From positions 1 through 64,000 of the forward strand of contig NZ_QYTW02000009.1 in the NCBI RefSeq assembly GCF_003605405.2: a stretch of 64,000 bases of DNA. Reading direction: 5' to 3'. Below, in pieces: positions 32,842-62,579 of the stretch. The notes under the pieces were generated by a model that was not told where the DNA came from, ran no database searches, and saw only the letters and a program-made list of their open reading frames with translations. The first letter of the stretch is position 1; the number at the start of each line of letters is the position of its first letter. Position numbers and translations under genes: made by a program. The stretch comes from Siminovitchia terrae (lineage in GTDB: Bacteria > Bacillota > Bacilli > Bacillales > Bacillaceae_C).

Positions 32842-33035
32842 TTTAACTTCATTCAGCAGAAGTCTCCCACTTCTGTAAGTGGTGAGATAAATGCCTATTG
32901 GTATTCCATTCAGTGGGGGTCCAAACCCCGGCTGAATAAAGTGAAAGCCTCCGGCGGATGCCACAGATTTTCAGAGGAAATTTATCGAGCGGAGCTCGAT
33001 AAAATCTGGGCGCGAATACGTAAGGTGCATTTGAT
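32842..33035 (+). repeat. Family B structured repeat, copy 1
   Basis: A 194-bp unit from TTTAAC to TTTGAT. It carries the GGGGNNNAAACCCC-type hairpin, the GAATGCC-type hairpin, and the TTTATCGAGC / GCTCGATAAA stem. The last hairpin is partly decayed. It ends 15 bp from the stop of the DUF4256 gene. Confidence 0.9.
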
Positions 33036-33050
33036 CACTCAGATTCAAAT

Positions 33051-33632
33051 TTAGACCCTTAGCGAGCAGCGGAACCCTCTGCCACCAAAGTAGGCGTCCG
33101 CGCCGTTATGATACAAGAAGACGTGTCCGAAACGAAAATCGCAAAAAAGCGCACCGCCGAGTTCTCTAATATCAGAGGGAGTTTGCACCCAACTTGACGT
33201 TTTCATATCGAAATTCTCAAGTTTCTGCAACTCTCGATATTGTTCTTCCGTTAACAGTTCAATGCCCATGGCGGCTGCCATATCAATAGCGTTATTTTCA
33301 GGTTTATGTTTTTTTCTTGACTCCAGCCCTTCACGGTCGAAACAAACACTTCTGCGACCTTTAGGGCTTTCCGCTGAACAATCACAAAAAATGTATTCAT
33401 CCTTCTTTTTATCATGACCAACAACATCCGGTTCACCGCCGGTTCTTTCCATTTCATTGAGCGACCAAATTTTTTCAGCATTAGCATCCAGCTTTGCTTT
33501 GACTTTAGTCCATTCAAGACCTTTATGGCGATGCATGTTTTTTTCAAAACGAGTTTTTAATACACTAAGCAACTCTTCGCGTTGTTCTAATGACAGCTCC
33601 TTTTTATTGCTGATTTTATCACTCTTTGTCAT
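33051..33632 (-). CDS. DUF4256 family protein
   Basis: A 193-aa soluble protein of the DUF4256 family, with the characteristic GGEPDVVGHD, FCDCSAESPKGRRS, and the Gly/aromatic C-terminus YHNGADAYFGGRGFR. Function is unknown. The start at 33632 follows AAAGGAGAATCGAAC; a start ten codons upstream lacks a site. The gene is flanked by family B repeats at both ends (15 bp and about 35 bp away) and is an insertion relative to the hemY-yhgD order of B. subtilis. Confidence 0.85.
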   Translation of the reverse strand: MTKSDKISNKKELSLEQREELLSVLKTRFEKNMHRHKGLEWTKVKAKLDANAEKIWSLNEMERTGGEPDVVGHDKKKDEYIFCDCSAESPKGRRSVCFDREGLESRKKHKPENNAIDMAAAMGIELLTEEQYRELQKLENFDMKTSSWVQTPSDIRELGGALFCDFRFGHVFLYHNGADAYFGGRGFRCSLRV

Positions 33633-33667
33633 GTTCGATTCTCCTTTATTGTTTTTACTCATAATAG

Positions 33668-33861
33668 TTTAACTTCATTCAGCAGAAGTCTCCCTCTTTT
33701 GTAAGTGGTGAGATGAATGCCTATTGGTATTCCATTCAGTGGGGGTTCAAACCCCGGCTGAATAAAGTTAAAGCCTCCGGCGGATGCCACAGATTTTCAA
33801 AGGAATTTATCGAGCGGAGCTCGATAAATTCTGGGCGCAAATACGCCAAGGCGCATTTGAT
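33668..33861 (+). repeat. Family B structured repeat, copy 2
   Basis: TTTAAC to TTTGAT. It keeps the basal stem arms and the TTTATCGAGC stem, with one base lost before that stem (AAAGGAATTTATC). The 14 bases after the right border (GATATGTAAATATT) also follow copy 3, so these two share flanking DNA. Confidence 0.9.
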
Positions 33862-34684
33862 GGATATGTAAATATTTGTTTTGTAACAGTCTTTTAATAG
33901 CTGTGTAAATTCAGTGTATAATAAATTATATGGTTAAGTAAATCCATTCCTCACAATGGTTCTTGAATGATGCAACGTGAACACTTGTTTAAAAATTATT
34001 CTTACAGGGGTTAGTGGACAGGTTGATTCAAAGATTGGGAGCTAATGCAGAAAAGGATGTTACAGCCTATTAAGGTACAAGGGACTTTATCCAAGTATTA
34101 AGGGAAGATATCGTTCTTAAGTAACTTCCGTTGTAGATGAGATTCAAGACAATTACTAAATCTGTACTCCTAAAATACATAACTGATTTGAAACAATATT
34201 CGGCTTAAGAAATGTTTACCATGCCATTATTTCTGGAGTGGCATATCACGCGTTTTGTACACTTAGTTTGGCCAAATCATAGGCTAATTGTATCCTATCC
34301 TTTATAAAGACTTGCTTTTTTTAGGGGTAATTTACATGATCTTGGAAAAATATAAGAATATGAATTTGTTGAAAATATAGCTGTCGATTCGATATTAGAA
34401 GGTAAATTGCTAAGGCATATCCGATGGTTAACACAGGAATCGAGATAACAGCTAAAGAACTAGGGCGAAGAAATAATTTTGCAACACCTGATACATAAAA
34501 ATTAGAAATAAACTACAAATCGCTTTTGAAGCTGAGATTGGTACGAGATACGACAAGGAAGAGGCCTGTTATTCAGCCCATAAAAGTATCAATCAATTTT
34601 TTCGCAAAAATGAAAACAGATGTTAACTCGGAATGTACAATCTAGGTAAAGAATGATACAACTGAAGAAAAGGAGAGCATTAAT
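33862..34684. other. AT-rich, probably decayed DNA between repeats
   Basis: About 820 bases without a credible gene. Short frames with peptide-like composition (for example near 34423-34497) are repeatedly broken by stops, as expected from decayed coding DNA. I could not name a source gene. Confidence 0.4.
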
Positions 34685-35074
34685 ATGGGGTATTCTGAAA
34701 TTGCAGTAATACTGTTCGTTTATAGTGGACTCATGACTTTCTTTTTAATCCCTTTTCAAAGGAGAGCACACTCAAAAAGTTACCAACAGAATCAGATATC
34801 CTTCATATCAATTTTTAAATCTAGTTTAGTTAAAATGATTTTTCACAAAAAGGCTATTTTAGCTTTAACCTTATTAGGATTTATGTTAATTAGCATTTGG
34901 TTAGGATATGCTGGCGTAGAAGACCATTATAATGCTCACAGTGGTTATTCTTCAATAAGCACAAATTTCAAAGCTATATATACTATTTGCGGTGTATTTG
35001 TATATACAGTTGTTCTTTTATTGCTTCTCGGATATGTGAGAACATTAAAAATCGTAAAGAGTACAAACAAGTAA
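34685..35074 (+). CDS. Small membrane protein in the repeat-bounded insert
   Basis: A 129-aa product with three hydrophobic segments (N-terminal IAVILFVYSGLMTFF, middle ILALTLLGFMLISIWLGY, C-terminal AIYTICGVFVYTVVLLLLLGY) and a basic tail. The ATG follows AAAAGGAGAGCATTAAT. The family is unknown to me. It lies between family B copies 2 and 3 and is more AT-rich than its neighbours, which suggests transfer. Confidence 0.65.
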   Translation: MGYSEIAVILFVYSGLMTFFLIPFQRRAHSKSYQQNQISFISIFKSSLVKMIFHKKAILALTLLGFMLISIWLGYAGVEDHYNAHSGYSSISTNFKAIYTICGVFVYTVVLLLLLGYVRTLKIVKSTNK

Positions 35075-35079
35075 GAATA

Positions 35080-35262
35080 GAAATAAGTTTTTCTGATTTC
35101 AACTTTAATGATCAAGATTATTTATATGGTAGCCTTTTTGGGAAGAAGGAGCTTATTAATGATGCAAATAATGAAAGTGATGTGTTACTAAGAGTAAAAG
35201 ATGACAAGGGTAATGTTATCATTGATGAGTTTCAAGTATCATCTGACAAATCATCAAATTAG
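35080..35262 (+). pseudogene. Gene fragment ending at family B copy 3
   Basis: An open stretch just after the membrane protein encodes an acidic peptide (SFSDFNFNDQDYLYG ... KDDKGNVIIDEFQV) with beta-strand-like character and a stop five bases before the repeat. It has no start codon or ribosome-binding site in frame, so it is probably the remnant of a longer gene. Confidence 0.35.
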
Positions 35263-35266
35263 AAAG

Positions 35267-35461
35267 TTTAACTTCATTCAGCAGAAGTCTCCCACTTCTG
35301 TAAGTGGTGAGATGAAAGCCTATTGGTATTCCATTCAGTGGGGGTTCAAACCCCGGCTGAATAAAGTTAAAGCCTCCGGCGGATGCCACAGATTTTCAGC
35401 GGAAATTTATCGAGCGGAGCTCGATAAATTCTGGGCGCAAATACGCCAAGGCGCATTTGAT
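35267..35461 (+). repeat. Family B structured repeat, copy 3
   Basis: A nearly complete copy from TTTAAC to TTTGAT. Both arms of the 16-bp basal stem, all three inner hairpins, the TTTATCGAGC stem and the terminal CAAAT...ATTTG hairpin can be drawn. Confidence 0.9.
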
Positions 35462-35631
35462 AGATATGTAAATATTTCTTGTGGATGTTACCTTCTTTAT
35501 GCCTAGATTGGTCACAGATTAGTATGAATGGAGATTTGAAGAAATCTATAGTGCTGAATTTTCACACTAATAAAAGGCTACTTTCTAATTGGGTTTCCAC
35601 TATTCCCCAATACCTTTTTTGAGGCTCATTC

Positions 35632-35660
35632 TTGCCTCCATTTTAAAACTGTGTTATATT
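35632..35660 (+). promoter_or_regulatory. Sigma-A promoter of yhgD
   Basis: TTGCCT, 17-base spacer, TATATT. The predicted start of transcription falls about where the TGAC-N15-GTCA palindrome begins. Confidence 0.55.
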
Positions 35661-35670
35661 TTGAACAAAA

Positions 35671-35693
35671 TGACTATTTTGGTTTTTTAGTCA
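35671..35693 (+). promoter_or_regulatory. Putative YhgD operator 1
   Basis: TGACTA and TAGTCA form a palindrome with TGAC-N15-GTCA spacing, just downstream of the yhgD promoter. The same arms and spacing recur in front of yhgE. Confidence 0.65.
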
Positions 35694-35714
35694 ATGATAA
35701 GCGAGGTGAAATAG

Positions 35715-36287
35715 ATGGCTGTTGACCGAAAGCAGCTAATCGTTGAAGCGGCAACAAAATCATTTTCTCTGTTCGGGTATAAAGCCACGACGATGGATCA
35801 AATTGCAAAGATAGCCAATGTCGGCAAGGGAACGATCTATACTTTTTTCGAGAATAAAGAAGAATTACTTGCCGAAATAGTGACTGCTTTAATCAAAGAA
35901 ATGAAAGCTGAAGCAGAAGAAACAATCCGGGATGATTTATCATTCCATGAAAATGCCAACAGAGCTATCTATCGTTTGCTAGAGTTTCGGAAAGATCACC
36001 AACTCACGATTAAACTGTTTCAAGAGGAAAGGGAAATCGGTACTCCGACTGTCATGGAAGTCATCCAAAGGGTCGAGGGAGCGATTATCAACTATATAAA
36101 AGATAAAGTGGAGGAAGCGATACAAAAAGGTGAAATCAGACAATGCGATCCAGAAGTTACAGCTTACATTATGTTGAAGATGTATGTTTCTCTAATTTTT
36201 GACTGGGAAAAATGTCATCAGCCATTGGATAAGGATAAGATAGCATCTTTATTCGAATTTTATCTGTTTAAGGGATTGTCCAAGTGA
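35715..36287 (+). CDS. yhgD: TetR-family regulator YhgD
   Basis: A 190-aa TetR-type repressor. The N-terminal helix-turn-helix has the typical KATTMDQIAKIANVGKGTIYTFFENKEEL. The C-terminal ligand domain is divergent. It sits directly upstream of yhgE, as in B. subtilis, and matching palindromes precede both genes, so it most likely represses itself and yhgE. The ATG follows GCGAGGTGAAATAG. Confidence 0.92.
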   Translation: MAVDRKQLIVEAATKSFSLFGYKATTMDQIAKIANVGKGTIYTFFENKEELLAEIVTALIKEMKAEAEETIRDDLSFHENANRAIYRLLEFRKDHQLTIKLFQEEREIGTPTVMEVIQRVEGAIINYIKDKVEEAIQKGEIRQCDPEVTAYIMLKMYVSLIFDWEKCHQPLDKDKIASLFEFYLFKGLSK

Positions 36288-36311
36288 TAGTCCTTGTTTT
36301 CACAATAAAAA

Positions 36312-36334
36312 TGACTAAATGAGGAAAATGGTCA
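36312..36334 (+). promoter_or_regulatory. Putative YhgD operator 2, before yhgE
   Basis: AATGAC and GTCATT are perfect inverted arms with the same TGAC-N15-GTCA spacing as operator 1. The site lies in the 71-base gap between yhgD and yhgE. Confidence 0.65.
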
Positions 36335-36358
36335 TTCAGTATCGAGGGGAGAACAAAA

Positions 36359-38605
36359 GTGAAAAAATCGTTATTTATTGCTGAGTGGAAAGAGATTTTC
36401 CGTAATAAAAAATTATTAATACCTATTATTGCTGTGATGATGATTCCAATTCTGTATAGCGGTATGTTTTTATGGGCTTTTTGGGATCCATACGATAAAT
36501 TGGAAGATCTGCCGGTCGCCGTTATTAATAATGACAAAGGAGCCGAATTTGAAGGAGAAGATCTTCAACTGGGATATGAGCTCGTGGAAAAATTAAAAGA
36601 AAACGACCAGTTTTCTTTCCAGATTATTAAACAGAAGGAAGGTTATAAGGGGTTAGCGTCGCAGGATTATTACATGTTGATTGAGATTCCAAAGGATTTT
36701 TCTGAAAATGCAACTACCTTGATGGATGAAAATCCGAAGAAGTTGGAACTGAATTATGTGCCTAACGAAGGGTACAATTTCCTGTCTGCTCAAATTGGAG
36801 AAACTGCTATGAAAGAAATTAAGTCAGCAGTTTCCAAGGAAGTGACTGTTACATACGCTGAAACGATGTTTGACAAAGTACAAGAGATGGCGGATGGATT
36901 TGAGCAGGCGACTGAAGGAGCCAACGAACTAAGTGATGGAACGGAAAAAGTAAATGAAGGCTCGAATAAATTGAAAGAAAATTTGAGTTTGCTTGCTTCT
37001 AAATCAATCGAATTTCAAGACGGCGTATCCCAAATCAAGTCAGGGGCCGGAGAGTTGTCATCTGGAACTGAAAGCTTATCAAATGGCCTTGACCAACTTG
37101 CTAGTGGTCATAAACAGCTCGTAGATGGAACGAAATCAGCACGGGAAGGAGCTAAGAAACTAGCTTCAGGTTCGGAAAACTTGGAAGAGGGGCTTATGCA
37201 GGCTGAGGGTTCAATGGATGCAATTATTTCCGGTACTAGCCAAATTTATGATGGAACAGGCCAGTTGGCCGAAAAGCTTCAACAATTCCAATCCGGTGCA
37301 AGCACAGTTTCTCAGGGGGCAAATCAACTGAATGCAGGAATTGTCCAAATGAAGGAGCAGATGAATGGAATTGATGGAAAGCTTGCAGCACTGCCAATTC
37401 CTGATGAAGTAAAGGCGCAGTTGGCAAATGAGTTAAAAGGGCAGCTTCAGGAAGGGATATCTAAATTGGAAGCCGGGAGTGCTGAATTGGCGGCAGGGAC
37501 AGAACAATTGAAGTCGTCCGCCGGTGAACTGCAAAAAGGTGCTGCTACTCTAAATGAGAAAGTCGGCCAATTGAACGATGGGCAACAACAGTTACAGTCT
37601 GGGTTGGGTGAACTTTCCCGTGGATCGGGTGAGCTTTTACAAGGGGCAAATCAGCTAGCTGGAGGACAAGGCGAGTTGCTCAATGGAATGTCAACTTTTG
37701 ATCAAAAGTTGAATGATGCAAAGTCGGGGGCTGCAGAGCTGAATAACGGGGCAAAACAGTTGAACGGCGGAATGGAAAAATTGACGGAAGGGTCAAGCCA
37801 GCTTGGTGAGGGAAGCAAGCGGCTGGCAGAAGGCTCTGAAGAGCTATCGGATGGCATCCAACAGCTTGATGATGGAGCTGCCGAAATGAAGGAAAAACTG
37901 GGCGATGCGGCTAAGAAATCAAGCTCTATCCATGCCGATGACCAAACATATGATATGATGGGCGAGCCTGTAGAAGTGGAAAACCATCCAATGAATAAAG
38001 TTCCTAACTACGGAACTGGGTTTGCACCATACTTCTTGTCGCTTGGATTATTTGTCGGCGCCTTACTTTTATCGATTGTATTTCCGTTAAGGGAACCGGC
38101 CAGCAGGCCTAAAAATGGCTTTTCCTGGTTCATTGGGAAATTTGGAGTGGTTGCGATTGTTGGTATTTTACAATCACTGCTTGCGGTAGTCATCATGCTG
38201 TACGGTCTTGAAATTGAAGTGAAAAGTGTACCGCTTTTTATTTTGACAACCTTCGTAACAAGTATGGTATTTGTGGCCTTAATCCAGTTTCTTGTCACAT
38301 TGCTTGGCGACCCAGGCAGATTCATTGCCATCGTCATCTTGATTTTGCAATTGACAACGAGCGCAGGAACCTTCCCACTTGAACTGATCCCGCATGAATT
38401 GCAGTGGTTCAACGCTCTGTTACCAATGACTTATTCCGTTCAAGCGTATAAAGCGGTTATTTCTAGCGGGGATTTCAGTTTCATGTGGCATAACCTAGGA
38501 ATTCTGGGTGGTTTCCTTCTTGGCTTTATGATTTGTACGTTAGGTTTTTTCATTTATAAACATAAGAAGCAATATGCTGTGAGCCATATGGCTGAGGAAG
38601 CATAA
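36359..38605 (+). CDS. yhgE: YhgE/Pip family membrane protein
   Basis: A 748-aa protein with one N-terminal membrane segment, a very long extracytoplasmic part and about five C-terminal segments of ABC-2 permease type. The extracellular part (residues about 180-520) is built of imperfect heptad/undecad-like repeats of the type GxxxLxxGxxxLxxG (for example GANELSDGTEKVNEG), expected to form a long coiled coil. Relatives include the phage-infection protein Pip. Start is GTG behind GAGGGGAG. Likely controlled by YhgD. Confidence 0.9.
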   Translation: MKKSLFIAEWKEIFRNKKLLIPIIAVMMIPILYSGMFLWAFWDPYDKLEDLPVAVINNDKGAEFEGEDLQLGYELVEKLKENDQFSFQIIKQKEGYKGLASQDYYMLIEIPKDFSENATTLMDENPKKLELNYVPNEGYNFLSAQIGETAMKEIKSAVSKEVTVTYAETMFDKVQEMADGFEQATEGANELSDGTEKVNEGSNKLKENLSLLASKSIEFQDGVSQIKSGAGELSSGTESLSNGLDQLASGHKQLVDGTKSAREGAKKLASGSENLEEGLMQAEGSMDAIISGTSQIYDGTGQLAEKLQQFQSGASTVSQGANQLNAGIVQMKEQMNGIDGKLAALPIPDEVKAQLANELKGQLQEGISKLEAGSAELAAGTEQLKSSAGELQKGAATLNEKVGQLNDGQQQLQSGLGELSRGSGELLQGANQLAGGQGELLNGMSTFDQKLNDAKSGAAELNNGAKQLNGGMEKLTEGSSQLGEGSKRLAEGSEELSDGIQQLDDGAAEMKEKLGDAAKKSSSIHADDQTYDMMGEPVEVENHPMNKVPNYGTGFAPYFLSLGLFVGALLLSIVFPLREPASRPKNGFSWFIGKFGVVAIVGILQSLLAVVIMLYGLEIEVKSVPLFILTTFVTSMVFVALIQFLVTLLGDPGRFIAIVILILQLTTSAGTFPLELIPHELQWFNALLPMTYSVQAYKAVISSGDFSFMWHNLGILGGFLLGFMICTLGFFIYKHKKQYAVSHMAEEA

Positions 38606-38607
38606 AA

Positions 38608-38655
38608 AATGCGGAAGAAAGTCCCGATTGGGCTTTTCTTCCGCACTATTTTTTT
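38608..38655 (+). terminator. yhgE terminator
   Basis: TGCGGAAGAAA / TTTCTTCCGCA stem with an inner CCC/GGG extension and a T-run. Confidence 0.85.
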
Positions 38656-38689
38656 ATGAGTAAAGAAAGTATAAAATTAGATGAAATAT

Positions 38690-39010
38690 TTAGTTCGAAT
38701 TAAGTTTTTATATGTCTAGCTACGCCGTACAGGACGTACAAGTGCAAGCAAAGCGACAGGACGTCGCGTACTGAGCCTGCCAGCGCCTTGGTCAGCCCCT
38801 CGAGGTCACAAGTCACGCGGAAGTTTATTCAGGAAGAAATGTGCTCCTGCGGCACAGCTTATTCAAGGAAGCATATGTTTCCCTCGTCGCAAAGCTACAT
38901 GAAGCATACTCAAGGAAGCTTTTCACGATGTAATTGAAATTAGCAGCTTTCCTGTGGCGGCTGAGGAACTCCCTCATCAAAATTCGCCTTGTGCTTGTCG
39001 GCCTTTCACT
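38690..39010 (+). repeat. Family A repeat copy between yhgE and sco
   Basis: Contains the core GCCGTACAGGACGTACAAGTGCAAGC..., the GAGCCTGCC box and the CCTCGTCGCAAAGCT block that is also found near 870 in copy 1. It fills the gap between two convergent genes. Confidence 0.65.
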
Positions 39011-39014
39011 TTTC

Positions 39015-39578
39015 TTATAGAGAAGCTTTTATATCTTTAATGATCTGCTTGAATGGCACTTCTTTATCCCCGGGATATTCCCCGATCAGTTCCCCCTCTT
39101 TATTAAAAAGATAGAAGCTGACTCCATGGATGACCTGGTCGTCATCTCGTGGTTTTTTCACGACTGTTTTAAAATTTTTCGGTGCATAATTTTCGATTTC
39201 TTCTTGTGAATACCCTGTAAGGAAGTGCCATCTGGAAAAATCGGCTTCAAAGGATTCACCGTAGTCTTTTAGCACTTCAGGAGTGTCAATTTCCGGATCC
39301 ACACTAAATGATACAAAATGGACATCGTCCAGTCCCTTTTCCTTTACTTTTTTCTGCAGTTCGCTCATATTCATCGTCATTGGGGGACAAACCGTCGTAC
39401 AGTTCGTGAATACAAAATCGGAGACCCAGACCTTACCTTTTAAATCCTTAAGCCCGAAACTGTTCCCATCTTGATCTGTATAATTGAAATCTTCAATGGG
39501 GCTGCCACTCTTCGGGGAAGAACAGGCGCTTAATATGAGAAGAAAAGATATAAAGATAACGGAAAAAACTTTTTTCAA
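39015..39578 (-). CDS. Sco1/SenC-type copper chaperone lipoprotein
   Basis: A 187-aa lipoprotein of the Sco family that delivers copper to the CuA centre of cytochrome c oxidase. It has a signal peptide with lipobox LSAC, a thioredoxin fold, the copper-binding CTTVCPP (CxxxC) and the distal His in VIHGVSF. B. subtilis Sco is YpmQ, encoded elsewhere. A TTG start behind GGGAGGG is chosen; the upstream 20 codons lack a site and would displace the signal peptide. Confidence 0.88.
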   Translation of the reverse strand: MKKVFSVIFISFLLILSACSSPKSGSPIEDFNYTDQDGNSFGLKDLKGKVWVSDFVFTNCTTVCPPMTMNMSELQKKVKEKGLDDVHFVSFSVDPEIDTPEVLKDYGESFEADFSRWHFLTGYSQEEIENYAPKNFKTVVKKPRDDDQVIHGVSFYLFNKEGELIGEYPGDKEVPFKQIIKDIKASL

Positions 39579-39845
39579 AAAAAACCCTCCCGAAAAACAC
39601 ACATATTTTGCATCCATTATACCTAATATATGCAACACATTGGCAGTAACAGGCCAATGTTCAGAAATAATTCATTTAAAAGTAAATCTGGTGAATTTTT
39701 TACTTGCCGGACAAAAATGAAGGCTTTCCCTTATTGAGAGTCTCGAGAGATAGTGGTAATATCAATCCGAGAAAAGAATTCGAAACGGTATATTAGAAAG
39801 GCGTGAGGAGTCATATACCCTCTGATAAAGAAATTTTTATTTAAG

Positions 39846-40895
39846 ATGGATCCTGAAGAGATGCATCACCGTACCGTCTCCGCATTGAAGCTTGCGGATA
39901 AGGCGGGCGGAAAAGCATTGTTGCGGTCAATGTATCAGGTTGATGACGAAAGCTTGGCAATAGATGTTTGTGGAATACGATTTCCAAATCCGGTAGGATT
40001 GGCTGCCGGATATGATAAGAACGCTGAGGTTTATCATGCGCTGTCCGCCATGGGTTTTGGCTTTGTAGAGGTGGGGACGATAACACCGGTTGCGCAGTCT
40101 GGAAACGAAAAGCCGCGGCTTTTCCGTCTTGTTGAAGACAGTGCGGTGATCAACCGCATGGGGTTCAATAATGATGGGGCAGAGGCTGTTAAAAGGAACC
40201 TGCACCATTATGAAACTGCAGGTGTGCCGATTGGAATTAATATTGGCAAAAATAAGGTAACTCCCAATGATGAAGCATCAAGCGACTATGAAAAGTGCTT
40301 GGACATCCTTTATTCGTACGGACATTATTTTGTGATTAATATTAGCTCGCCTAATACTCCTAATTTGCGTGACTTACAGGAAATAGAGAGTCTCAAACAG
40401 TTAATTTCTTCGATTCAGAGGAAAAAGGCTGAACTGGAGTCAAATGGCGCAGCGAAAAAGCCGATTTTCTTAAAAGTGGCTCCTGATATGACTGATGAAC
40501 ATATGCGCGATGTTGTACATGCTGCTGTGGATGAAGGTCTTTCCGGAATTATTGCTACAAATACGACTCTGTCCAGAAAAGGGCTGGCTTCAAAAGCCTA
40601 TGTTGAAGAAGCTGGCGGCCTCAGTGGTCTCCCGCTCAAAGAAAGGTCAACCGCATGGATTAAGGAAATATATGAAGAAATCGGCGATCAGGTACCTATT
40701 ATTGGTGTTGGCGGTATATTTAATGGAGAGGATGCCTATGAAAAAATCCTTGCTGGCGCAAGCCTAATCCAAGTGTACACAGGGATGATTTATGAGGGTC
40801 CGGGAATCGTCAAATCTATTAATACAAGATTGCTGGAATTGTTGAAGAGAGATGGATTTACAAATATTAAAGAGGCGGTTGGAGCAGGCCGTTAG
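39846..40895 (+). CDS. pyrD: Class 2 (quinone-linked) dihydroorotate dehydrogenase
   Basis: Oxidises dihydroorotate to orotate in pyrimidine synthesis, passing electrons to quinone. The 349 aa from this ATG include VGLAAGYDKNAE, the RLFRL and NRMGFNN blocks, NISSPNTP and the FMN-binding IGVGGIF. The start is uncertain. The frame stays open upstream and encodes IYPLIKKFLFK, the family's usual N-terminal membrane-associating helix, and a GTGAGGAG site lies before it, but the expected Met codon reads ATA. The ATG given here has no ribosome-binding site. B. subtilis has a class 1B enzyme, so this is an extra or alternative gene. Confidence 0.88.
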   Translation: MDPEEMHHRTVSALKLADKAGGKALLRSMYQVDDESLAIDVCGIRFPNPVGLAAGYDKNAEVYHALSAMGFGFVEVGTITPVAQSGNEKPRLFRLVEDSAVINRMGFNNDGAEAVKRNLHHYETAGVPIGINIGKNKVTPNDEASSDYEKCLDILYSYGHYFVINISSPNTPNLRDLQEIESLKQLISSIQRKKAELESNGAAKKPIFLKVAPDMTDEHMRDVVHAAVDEGLSGIIATNTTLSRKGLASKAYVEEAGGLSGLPLKERSTAWIKEIYEEIGDQVPIIGVGGIFNGEDAYEKILAGASLIQVYTGMIYEGPGIVKSINTRLLELLKRDGFTNIKEAVGAGR

Positions 40896-40903
40896 AGAGA
40901 GGA

Positions 40904-40935
40904 TGGAGCTGTCATTGGGCAGTTCCATTTTTGTA
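40904..40935 (+). terminator. pyrD terminator
   Basis: TGGAGCTG / CAGTTCCA stem with TCATTGGG loop, followed by T's. Confidence 0.75.
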
Positions 40936-40951
40936 TTATAACAGATGAAAC

Positions 40952-40981
40952 AATAAAAAAATAACCCCCAGCGGTGGGGGA
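40952..40981 (-). terminator. yhfH terminator
   Basis: CCCCCA / TGGGGG hairpin. On the minus strand it is followed by TTATTTTTTTA. Confidence 0.75.
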
Positions 40982-40991
40982 GTATGTCAGC

Positions 40992-41120
40992 TTATTTAAA
41001 ATCTAAGCACTTATCGCATTTTGTTCCATAGCACTCGTGTTGTTCTGATACGGTTTCTCCGCATTCTGTACATTTCTTTGGAGGTAAATTTTTAAAAAAT
41101 TCAACTGCATTTTCGATCAT
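40992..41120 (-). CDS. yhfH: YhfH family zinc-ribbon microprotein, 42 aa
   Basis: A short gene easily missed. The product begins MIENAVEFFKNLPPKKC and has CTEC and CDKC pairs plus a lone Cys, the YhfH pattern, and lies next to yhfI as in B. subtilis. It has a promoter, a GGGAG site and a terminator of its own. A structural zinc site is likely. Function is unknown. Confidence 0.85.
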   Translation of the reverse strand: MIENAVEFFKNLPPKKCTECGETVSEQHECYGTKCDKCLDFK

Positions 41121-41171
41121 TTGAATGTCCACTCCCTCAAATTTGTTATACAACGGTGCTTCGTTGTTTAT

Positions 41172-41201
41172 ATTGTATTATAACAGTTGTTTTTCTGTCA
41201 A
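41172..41201 (-). promoter_or_regulatory. Sigma-A promoter of yhfH
   Basis: On the minus strand TTGACA, 18 bases, TACAAT. A TATAAT also overlaps the spacer. Confidence 0.5.
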
Positions 41202-41252
41202 CAGGAATTTTCTTTTTTTCTGCTAAAAATTTAAAAATCTAGTATAGTAAGG

Positions 41253-41450
41253 ATTAACTTCATTTAGCAGAGGTCTCCCACTTCTGTAAGTGGTGAGATG
41301 AATGCCTATTGGTATTCCGTTGAATGGGGGTTCAAAACCCCGGCTGAATAAAGTTAAAGCCTCCGGCGGATGCCACAGATTTTCAGAGGAAATTTATCGA
41401 GCGATGCTCGATAAAATCTGGGCGCAAATACGCCAAGGCGCGCATTTGAT
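41253..41450 (+). repeat. Family B structured repeat, copy 4
   Basis: ATTAAC to TTTGAT. The loop of the TTTATCGAGC / GCTCGATAAA stem differs (GAT for GGA) while the stem is kept, and T-G replaces C-G in the basal stem. It ends 25 bp before yhfI. Confidence 0.9.
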
Positions 41451-41475
41451 CGAAGATCGGAAGGGAGGGATGAAG

Positions 41476-42210
41476 ATGGAACTGACCATTATTGGACACT
41501 GGGGTGGATTTCCGAAAAAAGGGGAAGCAAGCTCAGGATACTTGTTGACTCATAACGGTTTTCATTTGCTTATAGATTGCGGAAGTGCTGTCCTATCCAA
41601 GCTCCAGACCATAATAAGTGCTGAGAGGCTGGATGGAATGATTCTTTCGCATTATCATGCGGACCATACGGCGGATATTGGTGTAGTCCAGCACGCCCTT
41701 TATGTTGGAAAGTTCACTAACCAGTATGACAGAACTCTCCCCATCTATGGTCATATGCTGGATCTGGAGCGCTTTAATCAGCTTTCTTATAAAGATGTAA
41801 CAGCAGGGATAGCTTATAAACCTGAAGAAATATTACATATTGGTCCATTTCGGATATCCTTTTTGCAAACACATCATTCAGTTCCCTGTTTCGCTATGAG
41901 GATTGAGACAGATGGAAAAGCTCTTGTGTATACAGGCGATACTTCATACTTTAAAGAACTGGAGGATTTTGCTAGAGGGGCTGATGTATTGCTTTGTGAA
42001 TCGAATTTTTATAAAGGGATGGATGGAAGTGCTGCTGGTCATATGACGAGCGAGGAAGTTGGAATGACTGCTCATCAAGCGGGTGTGGACAAGCTCATCC
42101 TGACACATCTGCCCCATTTCGGAGATCTGTCGAGGCTTAAAGACGAAGCTGCAGAACAGTTCACAGGTGAAATTCTCATGGCTTCGGAAGGGCTGAAAAT
42201 CATAATTTAA
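41476..42210 (+). CDS. yhfI: Metallo-beta-lactamase-fold hydrolase YhfI
   Basis: A 244-aa MBL-fold enzyme with SHYHADHT (metal ligands), HHSVPCFA, YTGDTSY and THLPHF motifs, equal in length to YhfI. The substrate is not known; relatives are RNase Z-like or phosphodiesterases. The ATG at 41476 follows AAGGGAGGGATGAAG. The frame is open upstream through family B copy 4, which can mislead start calling. The stop TAA is part of the TTTAAC border of copy 5. Confidence 0.9.
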   Translation: MELTIIGHWGGFPKKGEASSGYLLTHNGFHLLIDCGSAVLSKLQTIISAERLDGMILSHYHADHTADIGVVQHALYVGKFTNQYDRTLPIYGHMLDLERFNQLSYKDVTAGIAYKPEEILHIGPFRISFLQTHHSVPCFAMRIETDGKALVYTGDTSYFKELEDFARGADVLLCESNFYKGMDGSAAGHMTSEEVGMTAHQAGVDKLILTHLPHFGDLSRLKDEAAEQFTGEILMASEGLKIII

Positions 42211-42396
42211 CTTCATTCACCAGAAGTCTCCCACTTCTGTAAGTGGTAAAATGAATGCATATTGGTACTCCATTCAGTGGGGGTTCAAACCCCGGCTGAA
42301 TAAAGTTAAAGCCTCTGGCGGATGCCTCAGATTTTCAGAGGAAATTTATCGGGGCTCGATAAAATCTGGGCGCAAATACGCCAAGGCGCATGTAAT
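42206..42396 (+). repeat. Family B structured repeat, copy 5
   Basis: Begins inside the yhfI stop codon and ends about 20 bp before lplJ. It has a four- to five-base loss in the TTTATCGAGC stem (TTTATCGGGGCTCGATAAA) and a degenerate right border (TGTAAT). Confidence 0.9.
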
Positions 42397-42417
42397 GGTA
42401 AAGGGGAAGAAGATAAC

Positions 42418-43410
42418 ATGCTTTTTATTGATAATCAAGGTATTACGGATCCGCGAATCAATCTGGCTATTGAGGAATTTGCCCTTAAAAACCTTGAAAT
42501 GAAGGACGACGGGTATTTACTCTTTTATATTAATGAACCTTCAATCATCATCGGCAAAAACCAGAATACAATTGAAGAAATCAATACAGATTATGTTGAA
42601 AAAAATGGTATCCATGTCGTCAGGCGGCTGTCAGGAGGCGGAGCTGTTTATCACGATTTGGGAAATTTGAATTACAGCTTCATCACGAAGGATGAAGGGG
42701 ATAGCTTCATGAATTTCCGGAAGTTTACTGAACCCGTTATTCAGGCATTGGAGAAGCTTGGAATAAAAGCGGAATTGCAAGGAAGAAATGATATCCTGGT
42801 GGAAGGTCGAAAAATTTCTGGAAATGCCCAGTTTGCGACCAGAGGGCGCATGTTTACCCACGGGACATTGCTGTTTGATTCCGAAATCGAAAATGTAGTT
42901 TCCGCATTGAAGGTTCGGAAAGATAAAATCGAATCAAAGGGGATCAAGTCAATCAGAAGCCGTGTAGCAAATATCTCGGAGTTTCTGGAAGAAAAAATGA
43001 CCACCGAGCAGTTTAAGGAACTCCTTCTCCGTTATATTTTTGACGGACAGGATCCAATTCCAGCGTATAAGTTGACAGAAGATGATTGGAAAAAGATCAA
43101 TGAAATTTCGAAAAGCCGATACCAGAATTGGGATTGGAATTATGGGAAATCTCCTAAATTTAACTTTCAGCATTCACGCCGTTTTCCTGTAGGCCAAATC
43201 GAATTCCTTTTGGATGTGAATAAAGGCCAGATTACCAACTGTAAAATTTTCGGGGACTTTTTCGGTATCGGGGATGTAAATGATATTGAAGAGCGGTTGA
43301 TAGGAGTAAAATATGAAAGATCGGAAATAGCTAAGGTTCTTGAAAATGTAGACATCCAGCATTATTTCGGAAACGTTACAAAGGATGAAATCATTGAGCT
43401 GTTATATTAA
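42418..43410 (+). CDS. lplJ: Lipoate-protein ligase LplJ
   Basis: A 330-aa ligase that adenylates lipoate and transfers it to lipoyl domains. It has the RRLSGGGAVYHDLGNLNYSF motif, the NDILVEGRKISGNAQ block with the catalytic Lys region and a C-terminal accessory domain. The start follows AAAGGGGAAGAAGATAAC; the frame reads open upstream into family B copy 5, which is not part of the protein. Length agrees with the B. subtilis enzyme. Confidence 0.95.
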   Translation: MLFIDNQGITDPRINLAIEEFALKNLEMKDDGYLLFYINEPSIIIGKNQNTIEEINTDYVEKNGIHVVRRLSGGGAVYHDLGNLNYSFITKDEGDSFMNFRKFTEPVIQALEKLGIKAELQGRNDILVEGRKISGNAQFATRGRMFTHGTLLFDSEIENVVSALKVRKDKIESKGIKSIRSRVANISEFLEEKMTTEQFKELLLRYIFDGQDPIPAYKLTEDDWKKINEISKSRYQNWDWNYGKSPKFNFQHSRRFPVGQIEFLLDVNKGQITNCKIFGDFFGIGDVNDIEERLIGVKYERSEIAKVLENVDIQHYFGNVTKDEIIELLY

Positions 43411-43416
43411 GAGAGG

Positions 43417-43451
43417 AGTCACAGCCTGAAAAATAGGGTTGTGACTTTTTT
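43417..43451 (+). terminator. lplJ terminator
   Basis: AGTCACAGCC / GGTTGTGACT stem (one wobble) followed by six T's. Its right arm overlaps the -35 of lcfB. Confidence 0.8.
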
Positions 43452-43467
43452 GAACTTTTATTATAAT
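43439..43467 (+). promoter_or_regulatory. Sigma-A promoter of lcfB
   Basis: TTGTGA, 17 bases, TATAAT. It overlaps the lplJ terminator. Confidence 0.5.
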
Positions 43468-43508
43468 TAAAAATAGTAATGCATCTGGGATTTTTAACGC
43501 CAAAAAAA

Positions 43509-43526: not shown

Positions 43527-43541
43527 ATAGGAGGAAACGTT

Positions 43542-50134: not shown

Positions 50135-50138
50135 AGTT

Positions 50139-51284: not shown

Positions 51285-51485
51285 ATGTCAAGCTCCGACG
51301 TACAGGAAGTACTAGTGCAGGCGAAGCGACAGGACGTCGCCGATTTGAGCCAGCCGACGTACAGGAAGTACTAGTGCCACCGAAGCCACAGAATGTGACG
51401 ATCTGAGGCGGTCGGGCACTATCGGTGGAAGGGTCAAGTCAGGCTTAAGGAACTGCCTCTTAGCAATTCGCTTTGTGCTTATCGT
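51285..51485 (+). repeat. Family A repeat copy between comK and yhjD
   Basis: Two successive cores (CGACGTACAGGAAGTACTAG at 51298 and 51357) and the TGAGCC box. It reaches to the stop of yhjD. Confidence 0.65.
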
Positions 51486-51848: not shown

Positions 51849-52035
51849 TGAGCAGCCCTCCTGAGTAGAACGTTTGTTCCTTTTTTTGTATTTTACTAAG
51901 GGGTGAAAAAAATAGCAAGCTGAAAATTTTACCTCTTGCAAGGTGCCGAATAGAACAAGCAGGCCCGGCTATGCTATAATTTATAAGAAATCAAGTTGCC
52001 GGGCCCATTTACCTGCTGGGAATAGAGGAATGTTC

Positions 52036-52644: not shown

Positions 52645-52667
52645 TTTACATATTGTCAAAATGATAA

Positions 52668-52709
52668 AGGGAAAGCTGCTAAAAGTTATAGCGGCTTTTT
52701 TCTTTTTGC
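52668..52709 (+). terminator. yhjE terminator
   Basis: AAAGCTGCTA / TAGCGGCTTT imperfect stem followed by T's. Confidence 0.7.
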
Positions 52710-52740
52710 TGAAAACGTATCTATGAATAGGAATGTATGT

Positions 52741-52770
52741 TCGTTTCTTAGCTGCCATGTATGGTATAAT
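52741..52770 (+). promoter_or_regulatory. Extended -10 promoter of addBA
   Basis: TGGTATAAT with a TG one base before the -10. The -35 is poor. Confidence 0.4.
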
Positions 52771-52831
52771 AAGGTTACAAACATAGAAGAGCAATTAAGA
52801 TGATGTTTACAACAAAAGAGGGGTTGAAAGC

Positions 52832-59300: not shown

Positions 59301-60062
59301 CTGTCTATAAGTATCGAATCACCTTTGAAAGAGAAGGTGTTTTCAAGGCTTAATTGGAGTTATCCTCATTTGATTGCTTCAAAGAGAATGTCGAAACAAA
59401 CGGTTTCGGAACTTAAAAGAATGGCTGAAATAAAAGATGAGGCCAGCGCTGTAACCTTAATGGGTGGAAGCGGGCGTAGGACCTCCCCGATTTTTAACAA
59501 GCCGAAATTTCTTGAAAAGCAATCCATATCGCCAGCTGAACGTGGGACAGTCATGCATGCGGTCATGCAGCATATTCCACTTGACGAAGCTCCGTCACTA
59601 ATGTCTGTTGAGCATCTGTTAGATGATTTAATTCAAAAAGAAATCCTTACGCTTGAACAGGCAGATGCAGTTTCAGGTGAGCAAATCGTACATTTTTTTC
59701 AAAGTAATCTGGGCAGGAGAATCCTAGAATCACCCAAAACTGAACGGGAAGTTCCTTTCACAATGGGCATTAAGGCAAAAGAAGTCTACCCCGATTGGGA
59801 TGGTGAAGACGAATCTGTTATCGTCCAGGGAATGATCGACTGCATCGTGTTGGAAGAGGATGGTGCCATATTGGTCGATTATAAAACAGATGCTATCACT
59901 AACCGATTTCCGGGAGGTTTCGACCAAGCCAAAAAGGTGCTTGAAAAGAGATATCAGATGCAAGTCCATTTATATGGACAGGCCATTGAACAAATTTGGA
60001 AGAAGAAAGTGAAAGAAAAATATCTATACTTCTTTGATGGCAGCCACATTTTAAAATTATAA
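56316..60062 (+). CDS. addA: ATP-dependent helicase/nuclease subunit AddA
   Basis: About 1248 aa. UvrD-type 3'-5' helicase and nuclease that resects DNA breaks with AddB. Walker A AAAAGSGKT is near the N-terminus. Helicase motifs VDEYQDVN, GDVKQSIYRFR and TIHSSKGLEFP follow, and the C-terminal RecB-type nuclease carries GMIDCIV and VDYKTD. A TTG start seven bases behind AAGGTG is preferred; a GTG nine bases upstream is also possible. It overlaps the end of addB, so translation is coupled. Confidence 0.95.
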   Translation: MKTDIPVKPEHAKWTDDQWKAIYAKDQDILVAAAAGSGKTAVLVERIIQRVIAETDPLDVDQLLVVTFTNAAAAEMRARIGEALTQAINERSESVHLRKQLGLLNRASISTLHSFCLDAVRKHYYMIDIDPHFRVADDNEIGLLRDEVLDDLFEEEYGKKNNDQFFELVDTFTGDRSDGELQELVLKLYDFSRSHPHPDRWLDALVNMYNIPEGTSIEDLPFTQILLSDIKLQLTGARQMLEEAYEMTKMPGGPAPRAANYLDDLEIVNRMIKATTESWEILHSEMNNWKFTRAKSCRGDDYDRKLLEDADALRKKAKGILEKIVKDVFAREAEGFLRDMRQMHPIYQALVQLGKLFSIRFTLEKKEKGIVDFADLEHFALHIFVDGESSENEIQPSEIALEYRNQFREVLVDEYQDVNMVQETILQLISADGEYDGNLFMVGDVKQSIYRFRLAEPNLFLAKYTRFDSDGINNGLRIDLSRNFRSRAEVLDGTNFLFKQFMGKSVGEIDYNKDAELVLGAGYPSDDVYPIEVVLIDQSEESDSESNLQEDGFNEEEIEQSRLEARFLAKKIREIVDGEKSVYDPKIGLHRPVQYKDIVILLRSLTWAQDIMDELKHEGIPVYANLSSGYFEATEVTVMMSLLKVVDNPDQDIPLAAVLRSPIVGLDEEALAQIRMNFRKGSFYEAVKKFVKMPGDASLERVREKLTPFIGQLNEWRSMARSGLLSSLIWQLYRDTGFYEFVGGLPGGKQRQANLRALYDRASQYEETSFRGLFRFLRFIERMQDRGKDLGAARALGEQEDVVRLMTIHSSKGLEFPIVFAAGLGRKFNMQDINSSYLFDKDFGFASKYIDSDKRISYPSLPQLALKRKKRMELAAEEMRVLYVALTRAKEKLYLIGIVKNLEKEIKKWSKGSLKGDWLLKDFDRASASTFMDWIGPAIIRHKDCNIADIADVFGEVSNHPSRWKVDIVPTSVLQSAAEEVERESDDWLETVKEGLSISIESPLKEKVFSRLNWSYPHLIASKRMSKQTVSELKRMAEIKDEASAVTLMGGSGRRTSPIFNKPKFLEKQSISPAERGTVMHAVMQHIPLDEAPSLMSVEHLLDDLIQKEILTLEQADAVSGEQIVHFFQSNLGRRILESPKTEREVPFTMGIKAKEVYPDWDGEDESVIVQGMIDCIVLEEDGAILVDYKTDAITNRFPGGFDQAKKVLEKRYQMQVHLYGQAIEQIWKKKVKEKYLYFFDGSHILKL

Positions 60063-60063
60063 C

Positions 60064-60113
60064 GAAAGAGTGCCAAATAGGGAAAATCAGTCCCTTGGCA
60101 CTCTTTTCTTTGT
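60064..60113 (+). terminator. addBA terminator
   Basis: AAAGAGTGCCAA / TTGGCACTCTTT stem with an inner GGGA/TCCC pairing and T-run. Confidence 0.85.
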
Positions 60114-60722
60114 TGTATAGGAAATTATAAAATTCTATGCTTGTGTATAACTTGTTTATCAGATTGTGCTACGTCCAGCTCCAGCGCCTATCGACTAGCA
60201 GACTTCGCGCCTCCTCCTACGATAAGTCAACATCGGCTCCGACGGACAGGACGTCCTAGTGCAAGCGAAGCGACAGGATGTCGCGTTTTGAGCCTGCCTT
60301 CGTCGCCGTGTTGTCTGGCTGCGAGTGCCATCGACTCGAGGTCATAAGCCAATCGCTGCTGAAGGCAAACTACACCTTCTTCAGCGCTCGTCTTATGCTT
60401 GTCGCCGATAAGCAGGCACTCTCGCACTTCGTGTTTCCTTTATCTCGTTGGAGTCACTCCAGTCTGTACGTCGATGAACAGGCGCTTGCGCTTTTGTTCT
60501 AATAAAGGTGAATAGCTTATTTTTCACTAAACCCTGTGTCCAGCTCCGCCGTACAGGAAGTACAAGTGCAAGCGAAGCGACAGGACGTCCTAGTGCAGTT
60601 CGAAGCGACAGGATGTGCGATCCTGAATCGGGAGGTGGCTCTTTGAGGAGATCGAGTTATTGTGTCTCCCTCATTTTGAGTGTTCCAGTTTGTACGTCGG
60701 TAATCGGACGCTACCACTTTTC
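60114..60722 (+). repeat. Two family A copies between addA and gerPF
   Basis: 60165-60505 is the fullest copy of the family: CCAGCTCCAGCGCC start, GACGGACAGGACGTCC core and AGGCGCTTGCGCTTTTGT end. A second, shorter copy follows at 60535-60722. No gene is present. In B. subtilis this interval holds sbcD and sbcC. Confidence 0.7.
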
Positions 60723-60941
60723 TTAGTTATTCCCGACTGTCGGCTGGTCAACAAGATTCGTATCAAGTGTGTTGGTTCCACTGATTCCGTTATTCGTCAC
60801 GATAAAACCGCCGGTATTGGCAGAGCCAGAACCTTCAAATGTTTTTACAGCACTTTTGGGAGAAATGACAGCTGTATCCCCAAACTGGACAACGCCTCCC
60901 CCGACATTGAAAATTTGGACAGGTCCAACAATAGCAGGCAT
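60723..60941 (-). CDS. gerPF: Spore germination protein GerPF
   Basis: A 72-aa protein of the GerPA/GerPF family: MPAIVGPVQIF, GGVVQFGD, SPKSAVKTFEGSGSANTG. GerP proteins are coat-associated and let germinants pass to their receptors. It is the last gene of the gerP cluster, starts behind GGGTGATGACAA, and is separated from gerPE by about 160 bases of repeat. Confidence 0.9.
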   Translation of the reverse strand: MPAIVGPVQIFNVGGGVVQFGDTAVISPKSAVKTFEGSGSANTGGFIVTNNGISGTNTLDTNLVDQPTVGNN

Positions 60942-60964
60942 TTGTCATCACCCTATATGATAAT

Positions 60965-61175
60965 TTTGATTTGTCCAGCAACTTCCAGGAAGTATTGGTG
61001 CTGGCGAAGCCATAGGATATGATATGGCGTTTTAAGAGCTCAAAGCAATTTCGCCTTCTTTAGCATTTGTCTAGCTCCAGGCGCCATCGGCGCAAGGATC
61101 AAGTCAAATTGCTGTGGTGGCTGAAAAGCTGCCTCCTTGCAATTCGCCTTGTGCGCCTAAGGCTGTGCGCCTTGC
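60965..61175 (+). repeat. Family A repeat reaching into the end of gerPE
   Basis: CCAGGAAGTATTGGTGCTGGCGAAGC, GTCTAGCTCCAGGCGCC and GGCTGAAAAGCTGCCTCC match family A blocks. The right half overlaps the last 20 or so codons of gerPE. Confidence 0.55.
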
Positions 61176-61553
61176 GCTCTCATTACCCGGAGAAATTTGA
61201 CGGATATGAAGCACTCTTGCTTCTGAATTAATGTGATTAGTAGTACCTATTTGAACGATGGCAGAAGAAGAAATAGTTATTAGGTGAATATTACCAACCT
61301 TGATATCTGGATACTCGTTATACTTCGTAATGGACGGCAGCTGCCTGGGTAATGAAGGAATTGGGATGGGCTTGTTGAAGGCATTGTAATTCTTGAAATT
61401 ACCTTCGTTGCCAAAAAACAATTCTTTATATCTTTGTACGGCCAGAGCATCTGTGTAGGCTCTCAAATGTACAGTGTCGCCGATTTCAACGACAGAGCCG
61501 AATATCATATTTTTAATATCCATCGTCTTTACGACAGAACCTCTTAACGGCAT
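61104..61553 (-). CDS. gerPE: Spore germination protein GerPE
   Basis: A 149-aa coat protein of the GerPE family, with VVEIGDTVHLRAYTDALAVQR and KVGNIHLITISSSAIVQIGT. The normal end should be near VLHIRQISPG; the following 20 or so residues (ARRTALGAQGELQGG...) are encoded by family A repeat DNA and are probably an acquired tail. Start ATG behind AAGGAGATGCCATT, 16 bases after gerPD. Confidence 0.85.
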   Translation of the reverse strand: MPLRGSVVKTMDIKNMIFGSVVEIGDTVHLRAYTDALAVQRYKELFFGNEGNFKNYNAFNKPIPIPSLPRQLPSITKYNEYPDIKVGNIHLITISSSAIVQIGTTNHINSEARVLHIRQISPGNESARRTALGAQGELQGGSFSATTAI

Positions 61554-61569
61554 AATGGCATCTCCTTAT

Positions 61570-61743
61570 TTATCGGGAAAGAGGAACGAAAGGCCCAATG
61601 ATCAAAGATTCCGGCGGTGTGTCAAATAAAGATGCTAACTGAATTGTATCCGCATCTCCTACCAGCAGAATGGATGAAGCACTTACCCCGATCACCCGGA
61701 TCTGCCCGACACATAATTCACGGTTCACTATATTAAGTTCCAT
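61570..61743 (-). CDS. gerPD: Spore germination protein GerPD
   Basis: A 57-aa protein, too short for many gene callers. MELNIVNRELCVGQIRVIGV and SASSILLVGDADTIQLASLF show the GerPD family, and the place between gerPC and gerPE fits. Its start overlaps the end of gerPC and follows GGGAGGGATGAACCCCC. Confidence 0.88.
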   Translation of the reverse strand: MELNIVNRELCVGQIRVIGVSASSILLVGDADTIQLASLFDTPPESLIIGPFVPLSR

Positions 61744-62356
61744 GGGGGTTCATCCCTCCCTGTTGATTTGGAATTTGAGAAATGAAACCATGTACAGCTT
61801 TATTAATATCCGCCAGCAATGTCTTATATACTTTACTGTACAACTCTTCTTCATTCACATCATGGGTATGCTGCGTGCTGAAGAAACCCAAATAATGATC
61901 GGCTCTACCAGGGATTTGCTTGCGGATATCCTCTTTGATCATGTTGATATACGGCTCTTCAAGATTCCTGCCAACCTGAGTTTCTGTATCTTTTATCAAG
62001 GTATCCAATTCATTATCAATATAATGATTCAGCTTTTCAAGTATCTCATCATAGAGGTTGGGGTGGCGTACAAAAGCCTGGGTTTGCGTCGAGCCTGGCG
62101 GTGCTGAAAAATCCTCAACGGAATTCAGGTCAGCAGGGTTCATTCCAATATTTAAGGTCCCTTCAAGTGTTTCCACTTTTAGCTGGTCAAACTTATATTC
62201 CAGCCTTTCAACAGTTACAGTCGGCTTTTCTTTCAATTGTTTCAGTTCATTTGACAGGGATTGGATTGAATTCCTTAAAGAGGTAATTTCCTTCTGCTGC
62301 CTTTCTATGAAAAAATACAATTGCTGCATTGTGTAATTCGCCTGCATTTTGTACAT
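61733..62356 (-). CDS. gerPC: Spore germination protein GerPC
   Basis: A 207-aa protein with an N-terminal coiled coil (IERQQKEITSLRNSIQSLS) and the GerPC core VERLEYKFDQLKVETLEGTL, NIGMNPADL. The start at 62356 is chosen close to AAGGGTG; the ATG nine bases downstream is an alternative. Family B copy 6 begins about 30 bases upstream of the start, so its original leader has been replaced. Confidence 0.88.
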   Translation of the reverse strand: MYKMQANYTMQQLYFFIERQQKEITSLRNSIQSLSNELKQLKEKPTVTVERLEYKFDQLKVETLEGTLNIGMNPADLNSVEDFSAPPGSTQTQAFVRHPNLYDEILEKLNHYIDNELDTLIKDTETQVGRNLEEPYINMIKEDIRKQIPGRADHYLGFFSTQHTHDVNEEELYSKVYKTLLADINKAVHGFISQIPNQQGGMNPHGT

Positions 62357-62384
62357 CCACACCCTTTCAATGTTTAAAAAGGTA

Positions 62385-62579
62385 TATAACTTCATTCAGC
62401 ATAAATCTCCTACTTCTGTAAGTGGTGAGATGAATGCATATTGTTATTCCATTCAGTGGGGGTTCAAACCCCGGCTGAATAAAGTCAAAGCCTCCGGCGG
62501 ATGCCACAGATTTTCAGAGGAAATTTATCGAGCGGAGCTCGATAAAATCTGGGCGCAAATACGCAAAGGCGCATTTGAT
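62385..62579 (+). repeat. Family B structured repeat, copy 6
   Basis: TATAAC to TTTGAT, with the 3' half intact (TTTATCGAGC stem, CAAAT...ATTTG hairpin) and a few changes in the basal stem. It lies on the plus strand inside the minus-strand gerP cluster. Confidence 0.9.

Follow-up and report, generated by a model that had tools for sequence, protein, structure and literature searches.

REP-associated tyrosine transposases (RAYTs) are sister to the IS200/IS605 enzymes. REPs and REPINs, the palindromes of 20–40 nt that go with RAYTs, are gene-free and occur in hundreds of copies in genomes with a single RAYT gene; the bcr1 repeats of the Bacillus cereus group, also short and gene-free, make TTTAT duplications. 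Insertion sequences of the IS200/IS605 family, such as IS608 and ISDra2, insert on the 3′ side of a short, fixed target that is not duplicated, carry adjacent to their right end a hairpin that is preceded on its 5′ side by a complementary stretch and, in the account given for these two elements in PMC6006769, use the lagging-strand template. REPINs are treated in PMC3116915, GTAG and CGTC repeats in PMC3733652, which lists bcr1 among miniature inverted-repeat transposable elements (MITEs). Here we analyse a family of repeats of ~190 nt in Siminovitchia terrae (assembly GCF_003605405.2; 5.3 Mb in 68 contigs), six copies of which lie in a 64,000-nt stretch, hereafter the window (positions 1 to 64,000 of NZ_QYTW02000009.1, part of contig C68). 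These repeats very probably constitute a family of non-autonomous, gene-free single-stranded-DNA transposons oriented by the replication fork.

The element shares with IS200/IS605 the traits listed above, and its right end appears to resemble that of IS608 as given in PMC6006769; it differs in carrying no gene, in having its sole TTTAA complement ~100 nt inside and in being folded over its entire length, not at the ends alone. With REPs and REPINs it has in common the hundreds of gene-free copies, the single genomic RAYT and a candidate enzyme related to those of IS200/IS605; unlike the short palindromes, it is asymmetric, its exact target and polarity are visible and no copy adjoins the RAYT of its own genome. 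The absence of duplication sets it apart from bcr1, a distinction made by description. A search of open-access titles and abstracts, which leaves most subscription journals outside, returned nothing on this family.

Copies and borders of the element

A repeat search of the window gave six copies of ~195 nt in register (mean column identity 94%), all on the plus strand as an earlier note on this DNA had stated (Table 1). Covariance model R1 matched the plus strand six times (199–236 bits) and gave six weak mirror matches on the minus strand (25.6 bits or less). This model was built from an alignment (A3) that combines five window copies with 35 out of 42 full-length ones extracted from loci, so that the matches to five of the six window copies are expected by construction.

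The left border reads TTTAAC in copies 1, 2, 3 and 5, ATTAAC in copy 4 and TATAAC in copy 6; the right border is TTTGAT in five copies and TGTAAT in copy 5. The near-constant borders TTTAAC and TTTGAT described in the earlier note are found in most copies; the leading TTTAA, counted there as part of the unit, proved to be the host target and to lie outside the element. Because the pentamer is present in empty sites of relatives (see below), the first five bases of the 195-nt unit are host DNA, and the element proper is 186–193 nt long.

Table 1. Coordinates of the element copies, of the structural domains of copy 3 and of Bacillaceae-1-like repeats in the window (G numbers denote genomes of relatives)
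Feature	Position	Strand	Details
Copy 1	32842..33035	+	Host pentamer TTTAA 32842-32846, insert 32847-33035; homologous region in G003 and G001, no clean join
Copy 2	33668..33861	+	TTTAA 33668-33672, then insert; empty site TTTAA/GGATAT in G003; join in G001 not clean; no match in G002, G005
Copy 3	35267..35461	+	TTTAA 35267-35271, then insert; top R1 score of the window (236.3 bits); orthologous site absent from the four relatives compared
Copy 4	41253..41450	+	ATTAA 41253-41257, then insert; empty site ATTAA/CGAAG in G003, G001; sequence differs in G002, G005; flanked by a dihydroorotate-dehydrogenase-family gene and a metallo-beta-lactamase-fold gene
Copy 5	42206..42396	+	TTTAA 42206-42210, containing the stop codon of the upstream open reading frame, then insert; central stem with 4-bp deletion; TTTAA precedes the right flank in G003, G001, G002; G005 differs
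Copy 6	62385..62579	+	TATAA 62385-62389, then insert
5′ domain, copy 3	35267..35371	+	Outer stem TTTAACTTCATTCAGC/GCTGAATAAAGTTAAA enclosing three smaller hairpins; from folds and pair counts
3′ domain, copy 3	35372..35436	+	Stems TGCC/GGCG, CAGAT/ATCTG, TTTATCGAGC/GCTCGATAAA
Right end, copy 3	35437..35461	+	Hairpin CAAAT-A-CGCC-AA-GGCG-C-ATTTG, followed by AT and the right border
Bacillaceae-1-like repeats	963-1029, 8060-8125, 38726-38791, 51299-51420, 60243-60308	-	Opposite to the elements

The genome-wide search for the unit proposed in that note returned 525 matches to a 27-nt core with at most three mismatches (298 forward, 227 reverse); the core read backwards gave none in either direction, which rules out chance. 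If all 525 copies were full length, they would make up ~1.9% of the genome. A 25-nt core searched in 12 genomes of relatives (numbered G; loci of these and of the own genome are numbered L) matched 150 times in G003, 51 in G001, 21 in G032, 13 in G005, five in G040 and once in G022, with no match in G002, G004, G024, G017, G042 and G059. Among 60 relatives, own genome included, 14 bear the element by DNA match and 15 by R1, the latter screen having stricter filters. Plasmid and phage collections queried with copy 2 returned nothing at E ≤ 1e-5.

Insertion at a pre-existing pentamer

Window copies 1 to 5 were compared with stretches of four relatives; in addition, the joined flanks of 28 own-genome copies, out of 80 that were usable, served as queries against five relatives. 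Within the 30 loci kept, the alignment spans the join for eight of the 28, and three of these eight have a clean join against one relative or more: one is clean against G003, G002 and G005; another against G001 and not G002; the third, with pentamer TTAAA, against G002 and not G001, G004 or G005. The remaining five joins are changed, shifted or repeat-rich. Together with window copies 2, 4 and 5, clean empty sites were obtained for six of 12 comparable insertions, and none of the six has a duplication, in agreement with the earlier note. In all six the host pentamer, TTTAA in most, pre-exists and stays on the left, while the insert runs from the next C through TTTGAT.

Border counts are of the same kind. 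Among 92 own-genome copies whose match starts within the first eight bases of the query, 76 have TTTAA as left pentamer and seven ATTAA; A occupies each of the last two pentamer places in 91 copies, and C follows the pentamer in 90. The right border is TTTGAT in 83 of 89 own-genome copies. A fixed short target without target duplication, a trait of IS200/IS605, is thus present on the strength of both the clean empty sites and the pentamer counts.

Individual copies outside the window add further observations. At L012 (1501-1885) two copies abut head to tail, and the TTGAT that ends one serves the next as left pentamer. The copy at L082 (1001-1136, G040) has its 5′ domain shrunk to a single long hairpin. 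At L028 (1501-1695) a copy of the own genome occupies a site that is empty in G002, directly upstream of what we take to be the start of a tmRNA gene. The copy at L154 (11978-12160) apparently interrupts a gene, presumably of aldehyde-dehydrogenase type to judge by a motif in the flanks.

Orientation relative to the replication fork

The strand with G excess is the nascent leading strand and hence has the sequence of the lagging-strand template. Our sample comprised the window plus 20 stretches, each of 20 kb, that were picked from 16 further contigs already known to contain the element. Of its 70 copies, 69 run along the G-excess strand. In the stretches outside the window R1 detects 64 copies, and the six of the window bring this to the same total. 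Among 100 core matches listed, 96 lie on the majority strand of their own contig, four of those being the sole listed match there. At L144 and L148, where the majority of open reading frames (ORFs) is reversed, the copies still track G skew. In G032, a single contig of 5.49 Mb, skew determined at 20 sample places changes sign within the intervals 0.37–0.64 Mb and 3.07–3.34 Mb; of 21 copies, 18 fit it (two-sided binomial p 0.0015). The fork-strand preference anticipated by the earlier note, another trait of IS200/IS605, is therefore seen in both data sets. Random orientation, target duplications and lack of covariation had been named beforehand as refuting results, and none of the three was seen.

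The orientation of neighbouring genes does not account for this polarity. For 63 copies flanked on each side by a long ORF (ORFs being chosen by length and not with a gene caller), both ORFs are co-directed with the copy in 37 cases, only the 3′ one in 11, only the 5′ one in 10 and neither in five. Such counts are near those expected under independence if ~75% of genes are co-directed, and this split argues against gene orientation as the cause: copy orientation follows the fork regardless of neighbouring genes. Five of the 70 sampled copies lie inside long ORFs.

The polarity might also have arisen from selection against one orientation after unbiased insertion, and some chromosomal motifs do owe their polarity to selection. 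We consider this explanation quite improbable, since copies 90–98% like the query are already biased, and TTTAA is nearly equally frequent on the two strands of the window (123 and 130).

Secondary structure

Folding of copy 3, the copy used for this comparison, is well beyond that of shuffled sequences, with z of −5.7 as RNA, −6.9 for DNA of the plus strand and −7.35 for DNA of the minus strand. The 16-bp pairing with one mismatch that the earlier note described as closing three hairpins is present in the sequence and in the folds of copy 3. On the 3′ side of this 5′ domain lies TTAAA, the sole complement of TTTAA in the consensus. The TTTATCGAGC/GCTCGATAAA stem occupies the position at which a Bacillaceae-1 module sits in other genomes; in copy 4 the apical loop is altered and the TTTATCGAGC stem intact, as had been noted of loop changes sparing the stems. 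At the right end, CAAAT directly 5′ of a small hairpin pairs with the border-adjacent ATTTG, and this pairing survives a double change: an A-T pair is swapped to T-A on both sides in 11 of 40 sequences. A minimum-energy pairing of the 3′ domain (GCCT/AGGC with GGCG/CGCC) was dropped, as the paired change sits in the right-end hairpin. ARAGORN found no gene in the window, and a tRNA-like identity of the element is not supported.

In the chosen structure 91.3% of cells pair; the small hairpin GAATGCC/GGTATTC is weakly conserved (72% of cells paired). Cells with two-sided change number 56 against 19.7 in shuffles, and the covariation score is 0.121 against 0.091; none of 500 shuffles was as high in either measure, for a structure that was picked from the same sequences. 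Sliding the 3′ partners lowers pairing to 33–51% and the score to 0.069 or less. The main paired changes are G-C to A-T, C-G to T-A and A-T to T-A, in 11 sequences each, and T-A to C-G in eight.

A strong fold with paired changes could also point to a structured RNA or cis-regulatory leader spread by a mobile process and kept for its RNA function. Several copies, by eye, stop right before an apparent ribosome-binding site and start codon, and copies in relatives contain Bacillaceae-1 RNA. Yet DNA transposition would require the same stems, some copies lie within long ORFs (see above), and selection for an RNA is disfavoured because the orientation of copies tracks the fork independently of neighbouring genes. 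We regard an RNA role as the reason for the conservation of the family as quite improbable.

Candidate transposase

Target choice, lack of duplication and fork polarity are hallmarks of single-strand transposition by HUH/Y1 enzymes and so support it here. Under this mechanism the plus strand would become single-stranded on the lagging-strand template and fold into the cloverleaf-like 5′ domain, the branched 3′ domain and the right-end hairpin; a Y1 HUH transposase would make the left cut after TTTAA and the right cut after TTTGAT, a chemistry that we infer; and the excised strand would be joined into another TTTAA on the lagging-strand template without duplication. The enzyme would be a separate host protein, a RAYT, acting in trans, and no RNA function would be needed.

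The earlier note had proposed a gene-free mobile element moved by an enzyme encoded outside the window. Mobility is supported by insertion at TTTAA and by polarity; as to the enzyme, ten proteins scanned in the window include no annotated mover, and all four Y1 transposase matches in the genome map to other contigs. These comprise one IS200-type TnpA, one RAYT-like protein of 188 aa and two short frames with a stop. The best NCBIfam match of the 188-aa protein, the single RAYT match of the genome, is NF047646 (RAYT), at 70.9 bits below the cut-off of 80. H63, H65, Y122 and N126 are invariant across 28 homologues, Y122 being the predicted catalytic tyrosine and the spacing of Y122 and N126 being that of Y115 and N119 in the E. 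coli enzyme (residues as given in PMC8266576 and PMC6006769). The predicted structure of the RAYT relative at L287 has pLDDT 92.9 and pTM 0.88; a PDB sequence search with the RAYT alignment gave no match.

Homologues of this RAYT with at least 70% identity occur in five of 60 genomes, and all five carry elements (hypergeometric p 0.00055, kinship disregarded). As the five were picked by their RAYT, it is the presence of elements in all of them, not the shared RAYT, that is evidence. In G001, G003 and G022 no full-length Y1 match other than the RAYT is present, the rest being fragments or containing a stop; in G032 there is another open frame, of 191 aa. Two genomes of the same genus, G002 and G004, have neither RAYT nor element. 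In G030, with 34 R1 matches and no Y1 match, 16 aligned copies have a median pairwise identity of 70% (best 84%), so that they appear diverged as fossils would be. The closest named RAYT loci are from Bacillus sp. HF117_J1_D and Bacillus norwichensis. Copies lie ~0.8 kb from the RAYT gene in L287 and L288, with which the own RAYT locus is collinear (it is not with L289 at the DNA level); the reverse case near the RAYT, an empty site in the own genome where L287 and L288 have the element, gave no clean alignment.

The mover could instead be an ordinary IS200/IS605 TnpA, such as that of the intact IS200-type gene at L031, with the family representing palindrome-bearing derivatives of an insertion sequence. 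Target logic, strand preference and right-end hairpin are alike, an IS200-type TnpA open frame of 183–199 aa is present in the genome, and the hairpin TCTCCCACTTC..AAGTGGTGAGA looks, by eye, like the right-end hairpin of TnpB loci of the same genome, a similarity that serves as a lead only. The element has no similarity to the L031 locus at E ≤ 1, and G001, G003 and G022 bear elements with a RAYT as their sole full-length Y1 match. We find an IS200/IS605 mover unlikely, and the RAYT the better candidate. Descent from a particular IS200/IS605 element, suggested in the earlier note, gained no support from the L031 comparison; neither did an origin from a TnpB guide RNA, as none of five Rfam matches in window positions 32000–43000 (E ≤ 5) overlaps a copy, no Rfam match covers any window copy, and ~190 nt leave no room for a gene. 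In place of a tnpA/tnpB element with the same ends we saw only nearby copies, the search for an autonomous copy elsewhere not being exhaustive; the copies near Y1 or TnpB matches in L032, L036, L037 and L043 look like separate insertions.

We infer that the mover is probably the RAYT encoded elsewhere in the genome, a link that is correlative. The following findings weigh against this link or against the wider explanation. Elements occur without a RAYT match in G005 (same genus, 13 core matches), G023, G030 and G040, and six further element-bearing genomes have only distant RAYTs (36–50%). No element lies in flanks of up to 10 kb for 78 of 80 named RAYT loci, including that of Lederbergia citrea (73% identity), and none within 1.5 kb of the own RAYT. 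The GTAG tag of REPs is absent from both strands of the consensus. Six of the 12 comparable insertions are not clean and give no verdict on duplication. Of the covariation foreseen by the earlier note, the excess of paired changes over shuffles stands; the changes come mostly from one lineage and so amount to few events, and the number of pairs with two-sided change (18) falls within the 9 to 25 of slid structures (18 at −1, 25 at +1). A base-paired guide, with a paired change at the right end, is weakened at the left end: in 13 G032 copies with a readable left end the presumed guide is GTGAAA, and at the matching place 11 of the 13 targets have A, a mismatch, and two have C.

Bacillaceae-1 repeats

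PMC2864571 names Bacillaceae-1 among candidate RNAs of Bacillaceae. Full-length matches to this family (RF01690, 67 nt, 57–83 bits) sit at the central hairpin of elements in six of eight loci given, namely L076, L080 and L081 (G040), L053 and L079 (G026) and L278 (G030); L269 and L274 have no match, and an Rfam scan of the window found none in its six copies. Because Bacillaceae-1 also occurs without the element, we take it to be a separate repeat nested in some elements.

Bacillaceae-1-like repeats of the sampled genome mostly oppose the G-rich strand, with exceptions at L143, L157 and L159, and L143 (17351-18085) has 58-nt units of this kind in a tandem array. Four matches were found in 80 RAYT loci. 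Two of them, at L308 (9884-9950) and L357 (10072-10139), lie ~50 bp upstream of, or within the matched stretch of, RAYT genes. Bacillaceae-1 may itself be a RAYT-linked repeat.

Significance

According to PMC8266576, little is understood of how REPs spread or whether RAYTs move them, and both still await elucidation. On balance we lean towards mobilisation in trans, by a Bacillaceae RAYT, of an element that is large, asymmetric and folded throughout, whose target, cuts, lack of duplication and polarity are readable from the genome and which hosts Bacillaceae-1 in one of its hairpins. That an RNA family of Rfam sits inside a mobile element is of consequence for the interpretation of such families. 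Hundreds of near-alike asymmetric copies with a defined target and exact empty sites would provide a direct assay for movement of repeats by a RAYT, and a long-unproven partnership of enzyme and repeat would thereby become testable.

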